A stretch of DNA of 49,705 bases from NCBI GenBank assembly GCA_001781335.1, contig MFLL01000001.1, forward strand, positions 89,626 to 139,330. Direction: 5' to 3'. The position numbers and the translations under genes were made by a program. The notes under the pieces are model-generated. The model was not told the DNA's origin. It did no database searches and saw only the letters and a list, made by a program, of their open reading frames with translations. The stretch comes from Candidatus Kaiserbacteria bacterium RIFCSPHIGHO2_02_FULL_55_25. GTDB lineage: Bacteria > Patescibacteriota > Minisyncoccia > Phycocordibacterales > UBA2100. This document shows, piece by piece, positions 18,773 to 49,705 of this stretch; positions within the stretch are counted from its first letter, which is position 1; each line of letters starts with the position of its first letter.

Positions 18773-20386
18773 CTACGGTGTGGCGGGCGGCTTTGCGGGC
18801 AAGGAGATGGTAAATCTCGCTCCCTTGCCCTCCTCGGTAGAGAACGCAAGCCTGCCGCCATGCCCCTCAACGACTGTTTTTGCAATAAATAGGCCAAGTC
18901 CGCTGCCGTCCGGCGACATATGCACCGCGCGGGAACCTCGGAAAAACTTCTCAAAAACGCGCGATTTCTCGTCGGGCGTGAACCCGATGCCGGTATCCTG
19001 CACCGTGATACGCACCCCCTCGCCGGAACGCTCTGCCGCGACGGTCACCCGGCCGCCGGAGGCCGTGTATTTGACGGCATTGTCGACAAGATTCTGTATC
19101 GCGAGGTTCAGCCTGTTCCCGTCAAAACGTATCGCAGGGAGATCGTCCGCGATGCGGACGTCAAGCGCAACGTTCTTTTGTTTTGCAATATCTTCGAACA
19201 GTCCCGCTTCCGCGCGAATGGTTTCGCCGAGATTCCCCTCGGCGAAGGTGTAGGTAAACCTCCCCTCCGCGATGTGCCCCATGTCGAGCAGGTCGTTGAC
19301 CAGATGCATCATATTGTCGGCGGCGCGATTGCCCTTGTCGACGAGCGCGCGCTGCTTCTCCGAGAGTTGTTCGCGTCCCTCGGAGAGCAGGTTGAACGAC
19401 CAGCGCAAAGCGGCGACAGGCGTCCGGAGCTGATGAGCGGCGATAGTGATAAATTCAGATTTTGTGCGCTCCACCGCGACCGCAGCAAGCTCGCGCTGCG
19501 CTTTTGCTTCCATGACGACGCTCCGCAGGAGGAACACGCCAAGCACGAGCGCCGCGAGGAAAAAGCCTCCGTCCACCAACATCGCCTGCCCCGAGGTATC
19601 GAGCAGGAAGCGGAAGAAGGACAGTGTCCAGAGCGTGAAGATGAAAAGCTGTGCGGCGGCGACTTCGCGATTGAGCAGGTGGTAGCGCTCGATGGAGTAG
19701 AACGTGGCGAACACGAAGAGCGGAAACCCGATGTCGCCGACGAGCGGGTAGAAGTCAAATCCGTACCACGGTGTGAATCGCGTACCGCCGAGCGTAAGCC
19801 CCACCGTCATGCTAATAAAAAGCGCGAGTGCCTGATTCCTGTCCGACGAGTCAACCCCGGCCCGCGCACGCCACGCGAGCAATGTACCGGAGAAAATAGT
19901 ACAAACCACATAGTAGCCGATGAGGACGCCGAGGAGCGGTCCGGCCATAGGCGCGAGAGCGACATCCGCCGGAAGCAACAGGTCGCCGACTATCAGCCTT
20001 GTACCGAACAGGTCCGCGACGAGGAGCGCCGTCAAAAAGGCACCAAAAGAATAGACGGCCAATTGCATTCTCTGTACCAACTTGCCGTACTGCACACGCT
20101 CTCCCAGATAGACGCCGGCAAAATACAGTTGCGACATCGCTAGCCACACGATACCCGTGACGGAGACGACGCGCATGTCACGCGCAAGCTCAAGACCCGG
20201 AACAAGGTGGTACAAAAACCCGAACCACGCCCAAACAGATGCGACGGCGAGCGTAATCCACATCGGCCGGCCGAGGCGTTCGTGGCGCGCACTGATAAAA
20301 ATAAAGACAGCAAGCACGGTCGCCAGAAATGCGGCGAGACCGATACCTATAGATTGAATATCCGCAGGATTGAAATGAAGTCCCAC
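18773..20386 (-). CDS. sensor histidine kinase with multi-TM sensor region
   Basis: 7-8 TM N-terminus, H-box FITIAAHQLRTPVAAL, HATPase NLVDNAVKYTASGG / DTGIGF / GSGLGLFIAK. Confidence 0.94.
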   Translation of the reverse strand: MGLHFNPADIQSIGIGLAAFLATVLAVFIFISARHERLGRPMWITLAVASVWAWFGFLYHLVPGLELARDMRVVSVTGIVWLAMSQLYFAGVYLGERVQYGKLVQRMQLAVYSFGAFLTALLVADLFGTRLIVGDLLLPADVALAPMAGPLLGVLIGYYVVCTIFSGTLLAWRARAGVDSSDRNQALALFISMTVGLTLGGTRFTPWYGFDFYPLVGDIGFPLFVFATFYSIERYHLLNREVAAAQLFIFTLWTLSFFRFLLDTSGQAMLVDGGFFLAALVLGVFLLRSVVMEAKAQRELAAVAVERTKSEFITIAAHQLRTPVAALRWSFNLLSEGREQLSEKQRALVDKGNRAADNMMHLVNDLLDMGHIAEGRFTYTFAEGNLGETIRAEAGLFEDIAKQKNVALDVRIADDLPAIRFDGNRLNLAIQNLVDNAVKYTASGGRVTVAAERSGEGVRITVQDTGIGFTPDEKSRVFEKFFRGSRAVHMSPDGSGLGLFIAKTVVEGHGGRLAFSTEEGKGARFTISLPAKPPATP

Positions 20387-43749: not shown

Positions 43750-44283
43750 CTATGAATTTCGGAGGTAGGGAGCAAACCAGTTCCTTAGGCGTTTTTTGAG
43801 TTCTGGACTCTTGTAATCCTCAAAGGTTATTCTCTTGCGGCATTGGGGCGAGCCACATTGGCATTCCAGTATCCAACCGGGTCGAGTCTCAAAGGTTCCA
43901 TAATCACAGGTAACTTCTTCGCCATTGTTTATGTTACGAATCGCGCACCATACCCCATTGGACAACAAACCTGCGTTCGGATTACAGCTATGATTGATAT
44001 ATCCCCCCTGATGATCCTCATGCAATGGCGCATGGAGAATGTATGCGTCCCAGCCAATGCAAAGATTGCATTCATACCCAGTGACAGATTCGATAACTTC
44101 GATGAAGGCGCGATTGATAGTCGGCCCAAGTTCAACTACAACAACCTCTCCCTCGGCAATATCTCGCACTGCCACCAAACCAACTCCTGCAATCTTACTT
44201 TGCCCCAAAGCAACTGCCGGTGAGAAATGAGGCTTCGGGAGTGAAAAAAGATAGTCTCTGATTTTCTTCTCGATCTCATTCAT
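43750..44283 (-). CDS. SET-domain protein with post-SET cysteine cluster
   Basis: GVGLVAVRDIAEGEVV, GGYINHSCNPNAG, NNGEEVTCDYGTFE, CQCGSPQCRKRI; TATAGT 6 nt before ATG. Confidence 0.88.
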   Translation of the reverse strand: MNEIEKKIRDYLFSLPKPHFSPAVALGQSKIAGVGLVAVRDIAEGEVVVVELGPTINRAFIEVIESVTGYECNLCIGWDAYILHAPLHEDHQGGYINHSCNPNAGLLSNGVWCAIRNINNGEEVTCDYGTFETRPGWILECQCGSPQCRKRITFEDYKSPELKKRLRNWFAPYLRNS

Positions 44284-44306
44284 AGTTAAACTATACAGTA
44301 CCGGAC

Positions 44307-44375
44307 TGGGGGACATGGATTCGAACCATGATTCACAGCTCCAAAGGCTGCTGTCCTACCATTAGACGATCCCCC
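44307..44375 (-). tRNA. tRNA-Gln (anticodon TTG)
   Basis: GGGGGAT acceptor, GCAGC-CTTTGGA-GCTGT anticodon arm, CATGGTTCGAATCCATG T-arm, GTCCCCCA. Confidence 0.92.
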
Positions 44376-45190: not shown

Positions 45191-45577
45191 TTAGTCGCCG
45201 AAGTTGAAAGGCGGCGAGTCCTGACTCGGCACGGGCGAGCAGTTGATAGCTGAATCCCCTTCGTTGAGCGTGACTGTCTCACCGCGCGCGGTGAATATCA
45301 CCCCGCCACCCTCGTATCGCACGCCGGACGCCGCATCTTTTTTAACAAGTGTGACCGCAGGCGGATACACGGCGCCCGCGCTATCGGGGGCGATAGCGAT
45401 AGTGCTCATGTCGAGAGCAGGTGTCATGGTAAACGTCACACGCTCGTCGCACTCATATGAGTATGTGCCGAAGTTGTCGGCCGCCGGTGTGCCCGCGCTT
45501 CCCTTTTGGTTATACAAAATCGCTCCGATAAGAAGTGCGAGAACAACGATACCCGCCCACAGATAGATTTTATTCAT
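45191..45577 (-). CDS. membrane-anchored MliC-like (C-type lysozyme inhibitor) domain protein
   Basis: N-terminal TM, then YECDERVTFTM...VTLVKKDAASGVRYEGGGVIFTARGETVTL resembling the MliC SGxRY pattern. Confidence 0.68.
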   Translation of the reverse strand: MNKIYLWAGIVVLALLIGAILYNQKGSAGTPAADNFGTYSYECDERVTFTMTPALDMSTIAIAPDSAGAVYPPAVTLVKKDAASGVRYEGGGVIFTARGETVTLNEGDSAINCSPVPSQDSPPFNFGD

Positions 45578-45619: not shown

Positions 45620-47908
45620 ATGGGGACACGCATGCACGCTTTATTGCTGACACTACGGACTTCATTGGCTTTTCAGGCAATTCCTCGTTACTATTCACCG
45701 ATGCGGCAAATAGCCATGGTGACGGCCGCCGTAATAGGCGCCGTCAGCCTCATCGCAGCCGGCTTCACGTTTATACAAGCCAATCAGGAGCAGGTGGACT
45801 TGACAGCGCGCCTGCAATCGCGTGCGCAACTCCTCGCCGACAGTCTCGCCGAGAGCATCACGCCGTCGGTACGAAACGCCTCAACGAGCTCGGTACAGCG
45901 CATCGTCGACAAGTTTGCGACGCAAGAGCGTATCGAGGGGCTTGGTGTATTTGATGCAAGCGCTTCTCCGATCGCAATCTCTCGCGACATACCGCAAGCG
46001 GCGGCATCTTCGTCGCTCATCGCACTGGTGATGGACGAGAATGAATCTGCCGGCGCATTCGTACTAGGTGACGGACAGAGCATGTACGTGTTTGCCGAGC
46101 CGCTCACGTCGGATGACCGCGTCATAGGAGCGCTTGTAGTAGTGCAGAACGCGCAGTACATACAAGACCGCCTGTGGATCATCTGGAGGGACAACCTCGT
46201 CCGCTTGCTACTGCAAATAATCATCGTTACGAGCGCCATTTTCGTACTCGTGCGATGGGTATTCTTCCGTCCGCTGACGCGGCTTGTGGACAGTCTCAAG
46301 TCGGTTCGCGCAGGAGTGCGGACAGAGACCGACGGCGCCGTTCACGCCTTTTTGAGACCGCTAACGTCGGAGCTTTCAAAAATGACATCGAGTCTCCGGC
46401 AGGCCCGCACCGCTGCGAGCGAAGAGGCGCGTCTCCGGCTTCAGAAAATAGACAGCCCGTGGACGGCCGAGCGCTTGAGAGAATTTATAAAAGCCTACCT
46501 CAAGGACCGTCCTATTTTCGTTGTATCGAATGCGGAACCGTACGTCCACACCAAGGTCCGCAACAAAATCGAGTGGTCAGTTCCTGCGGGCGGGGTCATT
46601 ACAGCAATAGAACCTGTCATGGAGGCGTGCGGGGGCACGTGGATCGCATGCGGCAGCGGCAATGCGGACAAAGAGACCGCAGATAAGGACGGCAAGATTC
46701 GAGTCCCGCCGGACGAGCCCAAGTACACCCTAAAGCGCGTGTGGATTACACCGAAGGAGCGTAAGGGCTATTACGACGGCCTCTCCAACCAGGCACTCTG
46801 GCCCCTGTGCCATCTTGCGCATGTCCGCCCGCAGTTCCGCAAAGAGGACTGGGCCGAGTACCGCAAGGTCAATGTCCTGTTCGCAAAGTCGTTGCTCGAA
46901 GAGATACGGCATATCGAACGGCCTATTATCTTGGTGCAGGATTACCATCTCGCGTTGGCCCCCGCCCTCATCAAGAAAAGCCGCCCCGATGCACAAGTCG
47001 CCATCTTTTGGCACATTCCGTGGCCATCGGCAGCTCAATTCGCTATCTGTCCGTGGCGCAAGGAAATCCTCGAAGGAATGCTCGGCGCAGACCTCGTCGG
47101 CTTTCACACACAGCAGTACTGCAACAACTTCATGGACACAGTAGCTAGCGAGATTGAAGCGCGCATCGACTACGAGAGATTCTCCGTGTTCCGCGGCGGA
47201 CATCAATCCCGCGTCGAACCATTCCCTATTTCGATTGCATTTCCGGGAAATGCGGAACCTGATTCGCCGGCGGACAGGAGCATGATCGAGAGTCTCGGCA
47301 TCCGCACCGAATATCTCGCGCTCGGCGTAGACCGCCTCGACTACATCAAGGGCATTCCCGAGCGCCTGAGAGGTATTGAGTTCCTGCTCGACTCACATCC
47401 GGAGTACCGCGGAAAGCTTACCTTCCTGCAAATCGCGTCTCCTACCCGCGGGGGCATTGAGCAATTTCAGGAATACGCGCAGCTGGTCATCTCCGAAGCG
47501 GAACGCATCAACACCAAATTTGCGACGCGCGACTGGAAGCCCGTCGTACTAGAACATCGTAGCTATTCGCACAAAGAGCTTAGAGTGCTCTACCAACTTG
47601 CAAACGTCTGTCTCGTGACATCCCTCCACGACGGTATGAACCTCGTCGCCAAGGAGTATGTCGCCGCCCGAACGGAGGAGGGCGGCGTCCTTGTCCTTAG
47701 CCACTTTGCGGGCGCATCCCGCGATCTCCCCACCGCTCTCGTTATCAATCCGTACAGCGCGGAAGAGACCGCCGAGGCGATTCACAAGGCACTCACCATG
47801 CCTGAGAGTGAACAGCACCGCCGCATGAAAAGCATGCGCCAGTCGGTGCGCGAATACAACATATACCGCTGGTCTGCGGAGATTATCAAAACACTTGCGG
47901 GAGTGTAG
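45620..47908 (+). CDS. otsA: membrane sensor/HAMP-like N-terminus fused to trehalose-6-phosphate synthase (GT20); start uncertain (45620 or 45701)
   Basis: TM - extracytoplasmic domain - TM/HAMP-like region, then GT20 motifs QDYHLALAP, FWHIPWPSAAQF, GVDRLDYIKGIPERL, SLHDGMNLVAKEYVA. Confidence 0.9.
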   Translation: MGTRMHALLLTLRTSLAFQAIPRYYSPMRQIAMVTAAVIGAVSLIAAGFTFIQANQEQVDLTARLQSRAQLLADSLAESITPSVRNASTSSVQRIVDKFATQERIEGLGVFDASASPIAISRDIPQAAASSSLIALVMDENESAGAFVLGDGQSMYVFAEPLTSDDRVIGALVVVQNAQYIQDRLWIIWRDNLVRLLLQIIIVTSAIFVLVRWVFFRPLTRLVDSLKSVRAGVRTETDGAVHAFLRPLTSELSKMTSSLRQARTAASEEARLRLQKIDSPWTAERLREFIKAYLKDRPIFVVSNAEPYVHTKVRNKIEWSVPAGGVITAIEPVMEACGGTWIACGSGNADKETADKDGKIRVPPDEPKYTLKRVWITPKERKGYYDGLSNQALWPLCHLAHVRPQFRKEDWAEYRKVNVLFAKSLLEEIRHIERPIILVQDYHLALAPALIKKSRPDAQVAIFWHIPWPSAAQFAICPWRKEILEGMLGADLVGFHTQQYCNNFMDTVASEIEARIDYERFSVFRGGHQSRVEPFPISIAFPGNAEPDSPADRSMIESLGIRTEYLALGVDRLDYIKGIPERLRGIEFLLDSHPEYRGKLTFLQIASPTRGGIEQFQEYAQLVISEAERINTKFATRDWKPVVLEHRSYSHKELRVLYQLANVCLVTSLHDGMNLVAKEYVAARTEEGGVLVLSHFAGASRDLPTALVINPYSAEETAEAIHKALTMPESEQHRRMKSMRQSVREYNIYRWSAEIIKTLAGV

Positions 47909-47913
47909 ACAGT

Positions 47914-48687
47914 ATGTATTCGCAATCACGAGTACTGGATTCAGTCCGTAGCACCCGCGAGATGCTTCTCCCGCACTGGGGCAACGTGCCGGAGCGCATG
48001 AAAAACGGCTCGGCGCATTCGGTCGTAACGGGGCTCGACCTTGCGGTCGAACGCTACCTTGCCGGCGAGCTCAAGAAGATAGACTCCGGCGCGGAGTTTG
48101 CGGGCGAAGAGTACGGCGGGCGACGCGATGCGGACCGTTTTTGGCTCTGTGACCCGATAGACGGCACCGCGCATTTCGTCCGCGGTCTTCCCTTTTGCTC
48201 TGTGATGCTGGCGCTTATTGAGGACGGCCGCGTCAATTTTTCCGCCATTTACGATTTTATAAAAGACGACATGTACCACGCATCCCGCGGACAAGGCGCC
48301 TTCAGAAATTCCGAGCCGATTCATGTCAGCGACCGGCCGCTTGAACATTCCTATATTTCACTCGAGACGCGTATCGACAAGCCGGTCAATTTTGACCTGA
48401 TGCGACGCATGAGGGAATCCTCGGTTCTGTTCAGCTCGATTACCTCCGGATACGAATTTTCACTGGTCGCCTCCGGCAAACTCGAGGCGCGGGTGTGTGT
48501 TGACCCGTGGGCCAAGGACTGGGACGTGGCGCCGGGGTCGCTTCTTGTCGAAGAGGCGGGCGGCATAGTCGCCAATATCGGCTCCGCATCGTATGACTAT
48601 CGCGACCTCAACATGATTGCAGGCAACCCGCTCGTCTATCGCGCCCTCACCGAAGGTCCCAAGGCGATTTTTCCTCTAACCTCGTGA
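47914..48687 (+). CDS. inositol monophosphatase-family phosphatase
   Basis: GEEYGG, WLCDPIDGTAHFVRGLPFCSVMLAL, WDVAPGSLLVEEAGG. Confidence 0.92.
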   Translation: MYSQSRVLDSVRSTREMLLPHWGNVPERMKNGSAHSVVTGLDLAVERYLAGELKKIDSGAEFAGEEYGGRRDADRFWLCDPIDGTAHFVRGLPFCSVMLALIEDGRVNFSAIYDFIKDDMYHASRGQGAFRNSEPIHVSDRPLEHSYISLETRIDKPVNFDLMRRMRESSVLFSSITSGYEFSLVASGKLEARVCVDPWAKDWDVAPGSLLVEEAGGIVANIGSASYDYRDLNMIAGNPLVYRALTEGPKAIFPLTS

Positions 48688-49705
48688 GTTCCTCCCGATC
48701 ATGTCGACGACAAGCGCGCCCCACGTGAAATCGTGTGCGCCGAGTCCCGCGCCGGTATCGGGGTGGTAGTACTCGCGGAAACCGGACTTCTCCAAAAGCT
48801 CCATCGAATTCTCAAGTAACCTGTCCGCAATATTCTGGTAGTCATACCGGAGTAACCCGCGATATACAAACCAATTCGATGCAAACCACACCGGACCGCG
48901 CCAAAAACCCTGCGGATCAAACGTGCGCTCGTTCATCGCAACCGTCGGGAGCATGAAATTCGAGAGGAATTCGGACGGATTCAAAAGATGTTCTTCAACC
49001 AACTTCGCCGCCTCGTCCTCAGAAAGTATTCCTGCGTAGAGCGGCGCAAATATCGCCCACGTCTTCAGCTTCACTTTGAAATAGCTTTCGCTGTACGTCG
49101 GCCAGAAAAGATCGCCGTCAAACATTCGCTCGCGCATTGCGTCTGCCACCCGCCGGGATGCCTCGGTGAATTTCAATGCGTCCTCGTGCTTGCTCAGGTG
49201 TCCGGCAATGCGCCCAAGCACAACAAGATTCTCGACAAGAATTGCGTTGAAGGGAACGTCCTTTACCCAGAAGTATTGCTTCATGAACGGCGCATCGAAA
49301 TGCCCATTCCGTAATTCTTCTACCAATTTCAACCTGCTTTTGAAATTCTCCTGCAATGTCTGCACGGGCGGCAAGCCGAGGACGTCGTCAAACCGCGGCG
49401 AGTTGTCCTCTCCGCTTTCGTCCGGATTGATAATGCCTGCAAGGTGGTTGCCTCGAGGGTCCCTCGCTGTGAGCAAGTACTCGTAGAACGAACTCAGCGC
49501 CGGGTACATCTCCGCGAGAAAAGCGGCATCACCGTCTTTCTCAAAAATGCGCCATACCGCCTCAGCGATAAGCGGCGGTTGTGTGATGGTACTGGTACGC
49601 TTCTTCCCCTCCCGACCCCATTGGATGTCAACGAGCGTCCCCGGCTCCCAGTAGATCATGTGCGGCAACATGCCGTTCTCGAACTGTTGCGAGACCGCCG
49701 AACGA
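48676..49705 (-). CDS. GH63/trehalase-like (alpha/alpha)6 glycoside hydrolase, truncated at window edge
   Basis: reading frame continues upstream to the edge (RSAVSQQFENGMLPHMIYW); FWRGPVWFASNWFVYRGL, GFREYYHPDTGAGLGAHDFTWGALVVDM. Confidence 0.85.
   Translation of the reverse strand, partial: RSAVSQQFENGMLPHMIYWEPGTLVDIQWGREGKKRTSTITQPPLIAEAVWRIFEKDGDAAFLAEMYPALSSFYEYLLTARDPRGNHLAGIINPDESGEDNSPRFDDVLGLPPVQTLQENFKSRLKLVEELRNGHFDAPFMKQYFWVKDVPFNAILVENLVVLGRIAGHLSKHEDALKFTEASRRVADAMRERMFDGDLFWPTYSESYFKVKLKTWAIFAPLYAGILSEDEAAKLVEEHLLNPSEFLSNFMLPTVAMNERTFDPQGFWRGPVWFASNWFVYRGLLRYDYQNIADRLLENSMELLEKSGFREYYHPDTGAGLGAHDFTWGALVVDMIGRNSRG

Follow-up and report, generated by a model that had tools for sequence, protein, structure and literature searches.

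The window, a 49,705-nt stretch of contig MFLL01000001.1 from Candidatus Kaiserbacteria bacterium RIFCSPHIGHO2_02_FULL_55_25 (genome G000; 868-kb assembly, 99% complete), contains the only GT20 gene of that genome, and this gene codes for a chemoreceptor-like transmembrane sensor fused in frame to a trehalose-6-phosphate synthase (T6PS; OtsA fold). This sensor-enzyme fusion is real, and direct sensory control of the enzyme would best explain its anatomy. We propose, with a probability of about 0.6, that the protein acts as a one-component transmembrane receptor with T6PS activity as its output, in which an external cue would set the activity and a downstream phosphatase would give trehalose. 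Sensing and metabolic response would then be united in one molecule whose output is the enzyme for a metabolite precursor, and an extracellular signal may directly set the production of a stress-protecting sugar. Post-translational control of bacterial trehalose synthesis under stress is poorly explained, and the fusion family makes such control testable with one purified protein.

Extent, architecture and distribution of the fusion

The features of the gene and of its neighbors are listed in Table 1. An open frame of 762 aa starting at position 45620 is present in the sequence, and the original prediction placed the start of the gene there. None of the relatives shows homology before position 45701, and they align only from residue 28 of that frame, which is the Met codon at 45701. 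The upstream start was rejected and the gene corrected to this ATG, leaving 45620-45700 outside the gene. From N- to C-terminus, the protein consists of a TM helix, an extracytoplasmic single-Cache (PAS-like) domain, a second TM helix (TM2), a HAMP-like module, a signalling helix, and the GT20 domain. An AlphaFold2 model (mean pLDDT 84.5), whose input alignment was made of the window and related-locus sequences, predicted a helix at 2-58, the sensor beta-sheet at 80-150, a helix at 152-203 followed by a connector, a further helix at 216-249, and the GT20 fold from residue 272. Two TM segments were found by hydropathy in all 30 aligned family members. Together with Foldseek and Pfam searches, these analyses bore out the predicted succession of TM helix, extracytoplasmic region, TM helix and GT20 domain in one frame.

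Table 1. Features of the fusion gene and its downstream neighbors (positions in the window)
Feature	Position	Strand	Description and basis
Cache-HAMP-GT20 fusion CDS	45701..47908	+	735 aa + TAG stop; ATG where homology with all relatives begins
TM helix 1	45701..45769	+	residues 1-23; hydropathy peak 2.27 at 4-22, conserved 30/30; model helix 2-58
Extracytoplasmic single-Cache (PAS-like) sensor	45770..46153	+	residues 24-151; AlphaFold2 strands 80-150, Foldseek, profile
TM helix 2	46178..46261	+	residues 160-187; hydropathy peak 2.57 at 166-184; helix 152-203 runs on into HAMP AS1
HAMP-like module (AS1, connector, AS2)	46262..46411	+	residues 188-237; profile match to AF1503 HAMP; AlphaFold2 helix-connector-helix
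Signalling helix/linker, HAMP to enzyme	46412..46513	+	residues 238-271; most conserved region in genus
GT20 catalytic domain (T6PS/OtsA fold)	46514..47899	+	residues 272-733; PF00982 E 8e-119
Codon GCG (Ala278) at OtsA Arg9 position (glucose-6-phosphate-binding)	46532..46534	+	alignment; Arg9 role from PMC1769515
GGGAG Shine-Dalgarno-like element	47899..47903	+	within the 3' end of the fusion CDS; 10 nt upstream of the IMPase start codon
Inositol-monophosphatase (IMPase)-family gene	47914..48687	+	257 aa; PF00459 E 1e-40; 5 nt after the GT20 stop
Convergent GH63/MGH1-like glycoside hydrolase	48676..49704	-	PF22422 E 4.5e-70; cut by contig end

The reading that an assembly or gene-calling artefact has joined two separate genes can practically be dismissed, since an identical in-frame fusion occurs in 47 sequences from different genomes, and it was rejected on this basis. 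These 47 fused homologues belong to many phyla, small-genome Patescibacteria included, and the architecture extends well beyond this locus. The N-terminal part was thus found to be no separate gene, and it has a WalK-like sensor fold (see below). Within the genus, a match was detected in 20 of the 52 genomes surveyed, all but one corresponding to the fusion or its pieces; the exception (G070) was a weak match to the sensor region. Across 380 Patescibacteria genomes, the full fusion occurred in about 13 and a standalone GT20 protein in about 20. Outside Patescibacteria, the fusion was found in Omnitrophota, WOR-1, Elusimicrobiota, Acidobacteriota, Planctomycetota, Betaproteobacteria, and Geobacter and other deltaproteobacteria. 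The nearest named homologue belongs to a Nomurabacteria genome (L002; 55%).

A tree was calculated from 123 GT20 domains labelled as fused or standalone, using a quick method with no bootstrap and no outgroup root. A single branch (SH-aLRT 92) set all 47 fused sequences apart from the standalone ones. The labels required one change on this tree, a value as low as that being reached in none of 500 shuffles (mean 37.8). This grouping is compatible with a single origin of the fusion, of which it is not proof because the tree lacks an outgroup root.

The sensor half and its coupling to the enzyme

The N-terminal 262 residues matched the full-length WalK model 9a5d over their whole length in Foldseek (E 4.8e-12, TMq 0.72, 264 columns), and WalK Cache crystal structures at E about 3e-8; the Cache matches of this half were WalK/YycG, KinD, CitA and DctB. 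Profile searches placed the WalK/YycG Cache domain at residues 31-148 (E 7e-4) and the AF1503 HAMP domain at residues 188-237 (E 0.05), each in the expected place. According to AlphaFold2 and Foldseek, the sensor is formed by a long N-terminal helix and an antiparallel sheet between the two TM helices and is structurally Cache-like; Pfam matches of this region to Cache/CHASE8 families were weak. The whole N-terminal topology and fold are common to the fusion and to WalK/YycG-type sensor kinases (TM-Cache-TM-HAMP-output), which differ in having a histidine kinase as output where the fusion has a glycosyltransferase.

A HAMP linker had been predicted after TM2, and its fold, position and profile match upheld this. 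Helices corresponding to AS1, connector and AS2 directly follow TM2 (profile, AlphaFold2, Foldseek), and the hydrophobic spacing of AS2 in the window protein, L-x2-L-x3-L-x2-M-x3-L, fits the canonical HAMP pattern. On the other side, the window protein was below threshold for Pfam PF00672, which passed E<0.01 for a single member out of 30 in single-sequence searches, and the HAMP-like module of the fusion lacks the canonical DExG motif. What supports the HAMP assignment is therefore its fold, its position and the profile match, and not a strong family match. Variants of this region also occur: the HAMP/linker is shortened in proteobacterial members, and the TM2/AS1 stretch is apparently missing from an Acidobacteria copy (L004:2973-5102), which is either a real variant or a MAG error.

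Mean pairwise identity within the genus was 44% for the sensor, which is a fast evolving domain, 44% for the HAMP-like module, 69% for GT20 and 78% for the 34-residue signalling helix/linker. Because the input is variable and the transmission element nearly fixed, this pattern favors coupling over passive anchoring. It is accordingly unlikely that the N-terminal half is a mere membrane and dimerisation anchor for the synthase, conveying no signal to the enzyme. Such an anchor would agree with the poor sequence conservation of the sensor half, and no ligand or ligand pocket was identified; however, members from many phyla have retained the Cache fold, both TM helices, the HAMP register and the linker, and simple anchoring would call neither for a Cache domain nor for a linker whose conservation exceeds that of the enzyme.

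Cache domains often bind small molecules. For a receptor that directly controls its synthase, we envisage that the Cache domain would sense an external cue outside the cell and that TM2, the HAMP-like module and the strongly conserved signalling helix would relay the signal to the GT20 domain in the cytoplasm and alter its activity, for example via domain closure or dimer pairing; here we infer both the sensing and the direction of control. The enzyme would then convert UDP-glucose and, most likely, glucose-6-phosphate into trehalose-6-phosphate (T6P), from which trehalose would be formed by the product of the downstream gene, which is otsB in most relatives and codes for an IMPase-family phosphatase in the window's genome. 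Control without a kinase relay, as originally proposed, would follow from the fusion anatomy, since the sensor is directly joined to the enzyme. Fold, conservation, the grouping on one branch and the operon context speak for a receptor whose output is a metabolic enzyme, as had also been proposed. Envelope stress, named in the original prediction as the signal, is a guess, unsupported beyond the usual role of trehalose. A want of kinases was rejected as the explanation of the fusion, since three strong HATPase_c kinase-like matches (histidine-kinase-like proteins) were found in the genome. A HATPase_c (histidine-kinase-like) domain lies in the window itself, at 18791-19123 on the minus strand, in a 540-aa open frame (G000:C1:108416-108748).

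Cache-HAMP receptors drive kinases, cyclases, phosphatases and chemotaxis, and HAMP-coupled one-component receptors with enzyme outputs include adenylate and diguanylate cyclases and PP2C phosphatases. In the latter receptors the sensor and HAMP domains are fused directly to the enzyme, as in the fusion described here, but their outputs act on second messengers or phosphate marks, whereas that of the fusion makes a bulk metabolite precursor. The nearest published parallel is the OtsA protein of Arthrobacter, an osmotic-stress sensor whose self-assembly is promoted by T6P and which acts on cell shape (PMC5685639); it also links a T6PS to osmotic-stress sensing, but no transmembrane receptor half has been described for it and the mechanism is different. 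No paper on a sensor-GT20 architecture was found in the open-access literature, which is weak evidence, and domain databases may list the architecture. Each module is known, and their combination appears to be undescribed.

The GT20 active site

The GT20 domain (C-terminal 462 residues), which has a GT-B fold, matched T6PS of known structure with a phmmer E value of 2.5e-80 and a best Foldseek E value of 1.9e-39, with 5hvl, 5jio and 1gz5 at E 1e-36 or better. The NCBIfam equivalog for OtsA (TIGR02400) gave 429 bits, under its cut-off of 564.85. Fold, UDP-glucose site and catalytic residues are like those of E. coli OtsA and of fungal and mycobacterial T6PS (GT20), and otsB is the partner gene in most fusion relatives; OtsA differs in being soluble and having no sensor half, and the window copy in having no equivalent of Arg9 and Trp40. 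In OtsA, UDP-glucose is bound by Gly22, Asp130, His154, Arg262, Asp361 and Glu369, and glucose-6-phosphate by Arg9, Trp40, Tyr76, Trp85 and Arg300, all substrate-binding residues being kept in enzymes with T6PS activity (PMC1769515). Alignment of the window protein to E. coli OtsA indicated that the claim of intact key motifs held for all the UDP-glucose residues (G22, D130, H154, R262, D361, E369), for K267, and for Y76, W85 and R300 of the glucose-6-phosphate set; it did not hold for R9, replaced by Ala278, nor for the W40 position, occupied by Cys317.

The W40 position is variable among fused family members. At R9, Ala or Gly was found in seven genus members (G000, G004, G007, G010, G064, G067 and G072), six of which were in the tree and formed one clade with a support of 99; the other 41 fused sequences compared, outside this subclade, all have Arg. 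In the six-member set, E445 is changed to Ala or Thr in every sequence and T549 to Ile in five. An assembly error as the origin of the R9A change was rejected, since Ala or Gly is common to seven genus members. The loss of R9 as a consequence of the loss of otsB was also rejected, otsB being retained in six of the seven members lacking R9. G010 and G062 are not pseudogenes, as their gaps correspond to scaffold Ns.

With Ala at R9 and Cys at the W40 position, T6P synthesis by the window copy appears less certain than for the family. The loss of R9 may mean either that the acceptor site has been re-specified or that a salt bridge has been lost, in which case Arg300, Tyr76 and Trp85 would remain to bind the phosphate. 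We regard it as rather improbable that E445A, T549I and the missing Arg9 have jointly given the enzyme of this subclade a different acceptor, so that it no longer makes T6P but some other phosphorylated glucoside, which the IMPase would dephosphorylate. The confinement of Ala/Gly at R9 to a 99%-supported subclade, against Arg in the other 41 fused sequences, the accompanying changes at E445 (6/6) and T549 (5/6), and the retention of all substrate-binding residues in T6PS-active enzymes (PMC1769515) favor such a change. Against it, Arg300, Tyr76 and Trp85 of the glucose-6-phosphate site are retained, the paired loss of Arg and Glu may merely reflect a lost salt bridge, and the subclade members of known context, the window excepted, keep otsB directly downstream. 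Since otsB is kept in these other members, a phosphorylated disaccharide would be the simpler reading of the product.

It is very unlikely that the GT20 domain of this lineage has lost, or is losing, its catalytic function and is used for ligand binding instead. R9A and the Cys at the W40 position would fit a dead enzyme; however, the open frames are full-length, the aligned subclade members retain all the catalytic and UDP-glucose residues that were checked, and the gap in G010 consists of assembly Ns and not of a mutation. A broader proposal also has a low probability, somewhat below that of the acceptor change taken by itself: the fusions might be transmembrane glycosyltransferases gated by a ligand, forming a widespread class of receptors that directly tune compatible-solute synthesis, with the acceptor re-specified, the phosphatase swapped for an IMPase-family enzyme, and the product modified or new in the lineage of the window.

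Phosphatase genes and genomic context

In the genus, 16 genomes have a trehalose-phosphatase gene (otsB; PF02358) adjoining the fusion. Such a gene also adjoins the fusion in L002 and at 9 of another 12 Patescibacteria loci, and lies within about 6 kb of it in all 18 evaluable loci from other phyla. The nine genus genomes lacking the fusion that were checked also lack otsB. These associations link the fusion family to trehalose synthesis. The phosphatase arrangement seems to be flexible, since G215 and G352 have the fusion and neither otsB nor an adjacent IMPase gene, and G276 keeps otsB away from the fusion. In G215 and G352, the next genes (L181:3902-4648 and L182:3636-4877) resemble a TrmB-like regulator and a GT-B glycosyltransferase.

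PF02358 was not found in the window's genome. The slot held by otsB in G007, between the fusion and the convergent GH63 gene, is occupied in the window by the IMPase-family gene, which has its own Shine-Dalgarno-like element (Table 1) and is predicted to be translationally coupled to the fusion gene. The encoded protein retains the IMPase motifs GEE, DPIDGT and WD...EAGG, and among proteins of solved structure it is closest to inositol phosphatases. A gene of this subfamily (56% identity) is also present in G029, a divergent second species on another branch of the genus, where it (L140:8899-9672) starts 1 nt after the GT20 stop and otsB is missing. At an identity of 48% or more, the only other genus members with this subfamily are G022 and G074, both lacking the fusion; none of the 16 genomes that carry otsB has such a gene. 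Both fusion genomes that lack otsB in an intact context (G000 and G029) thus have the subfamily, against none of the 16 with otsB, for which the chance probability is 1/153; with the addition of G020 (no otsB, contig ending after the gene, 81% complete) it becomes 0.018. On the basis of synteny and mutual exclusivity with otsB, we infer that the IMPase-family gene replaces OtsB as a candidate non-orthologous T6P phosphatase. Such a swap would provide a candidate for the missing T6P phosphatase in genomes with T6PS and no otsB.

The convergent GH63/MGH1-like gene is also near the fusion in G007, G004, G071, G062, G010 and G008. Its best curated relatives, below cut-off, are glucosylglycerate hydrolase and alpha-glucosidase, and it possibly codes for a degrading enzyme for the product of the fusion pathway. 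A repeat search around the fusion gene gave nothing relevant. Upstream of the fusion, the divergent gene at 45191-45577 (minus strand) resembles, by sequence only, MliC-type lysozyme-inhibitor lipoproteins. The open frame at 43750-44316 (minus strand) contains a YINHSCNPN motif and is SET-domain-like, which is unusual for a small bacterial genome.
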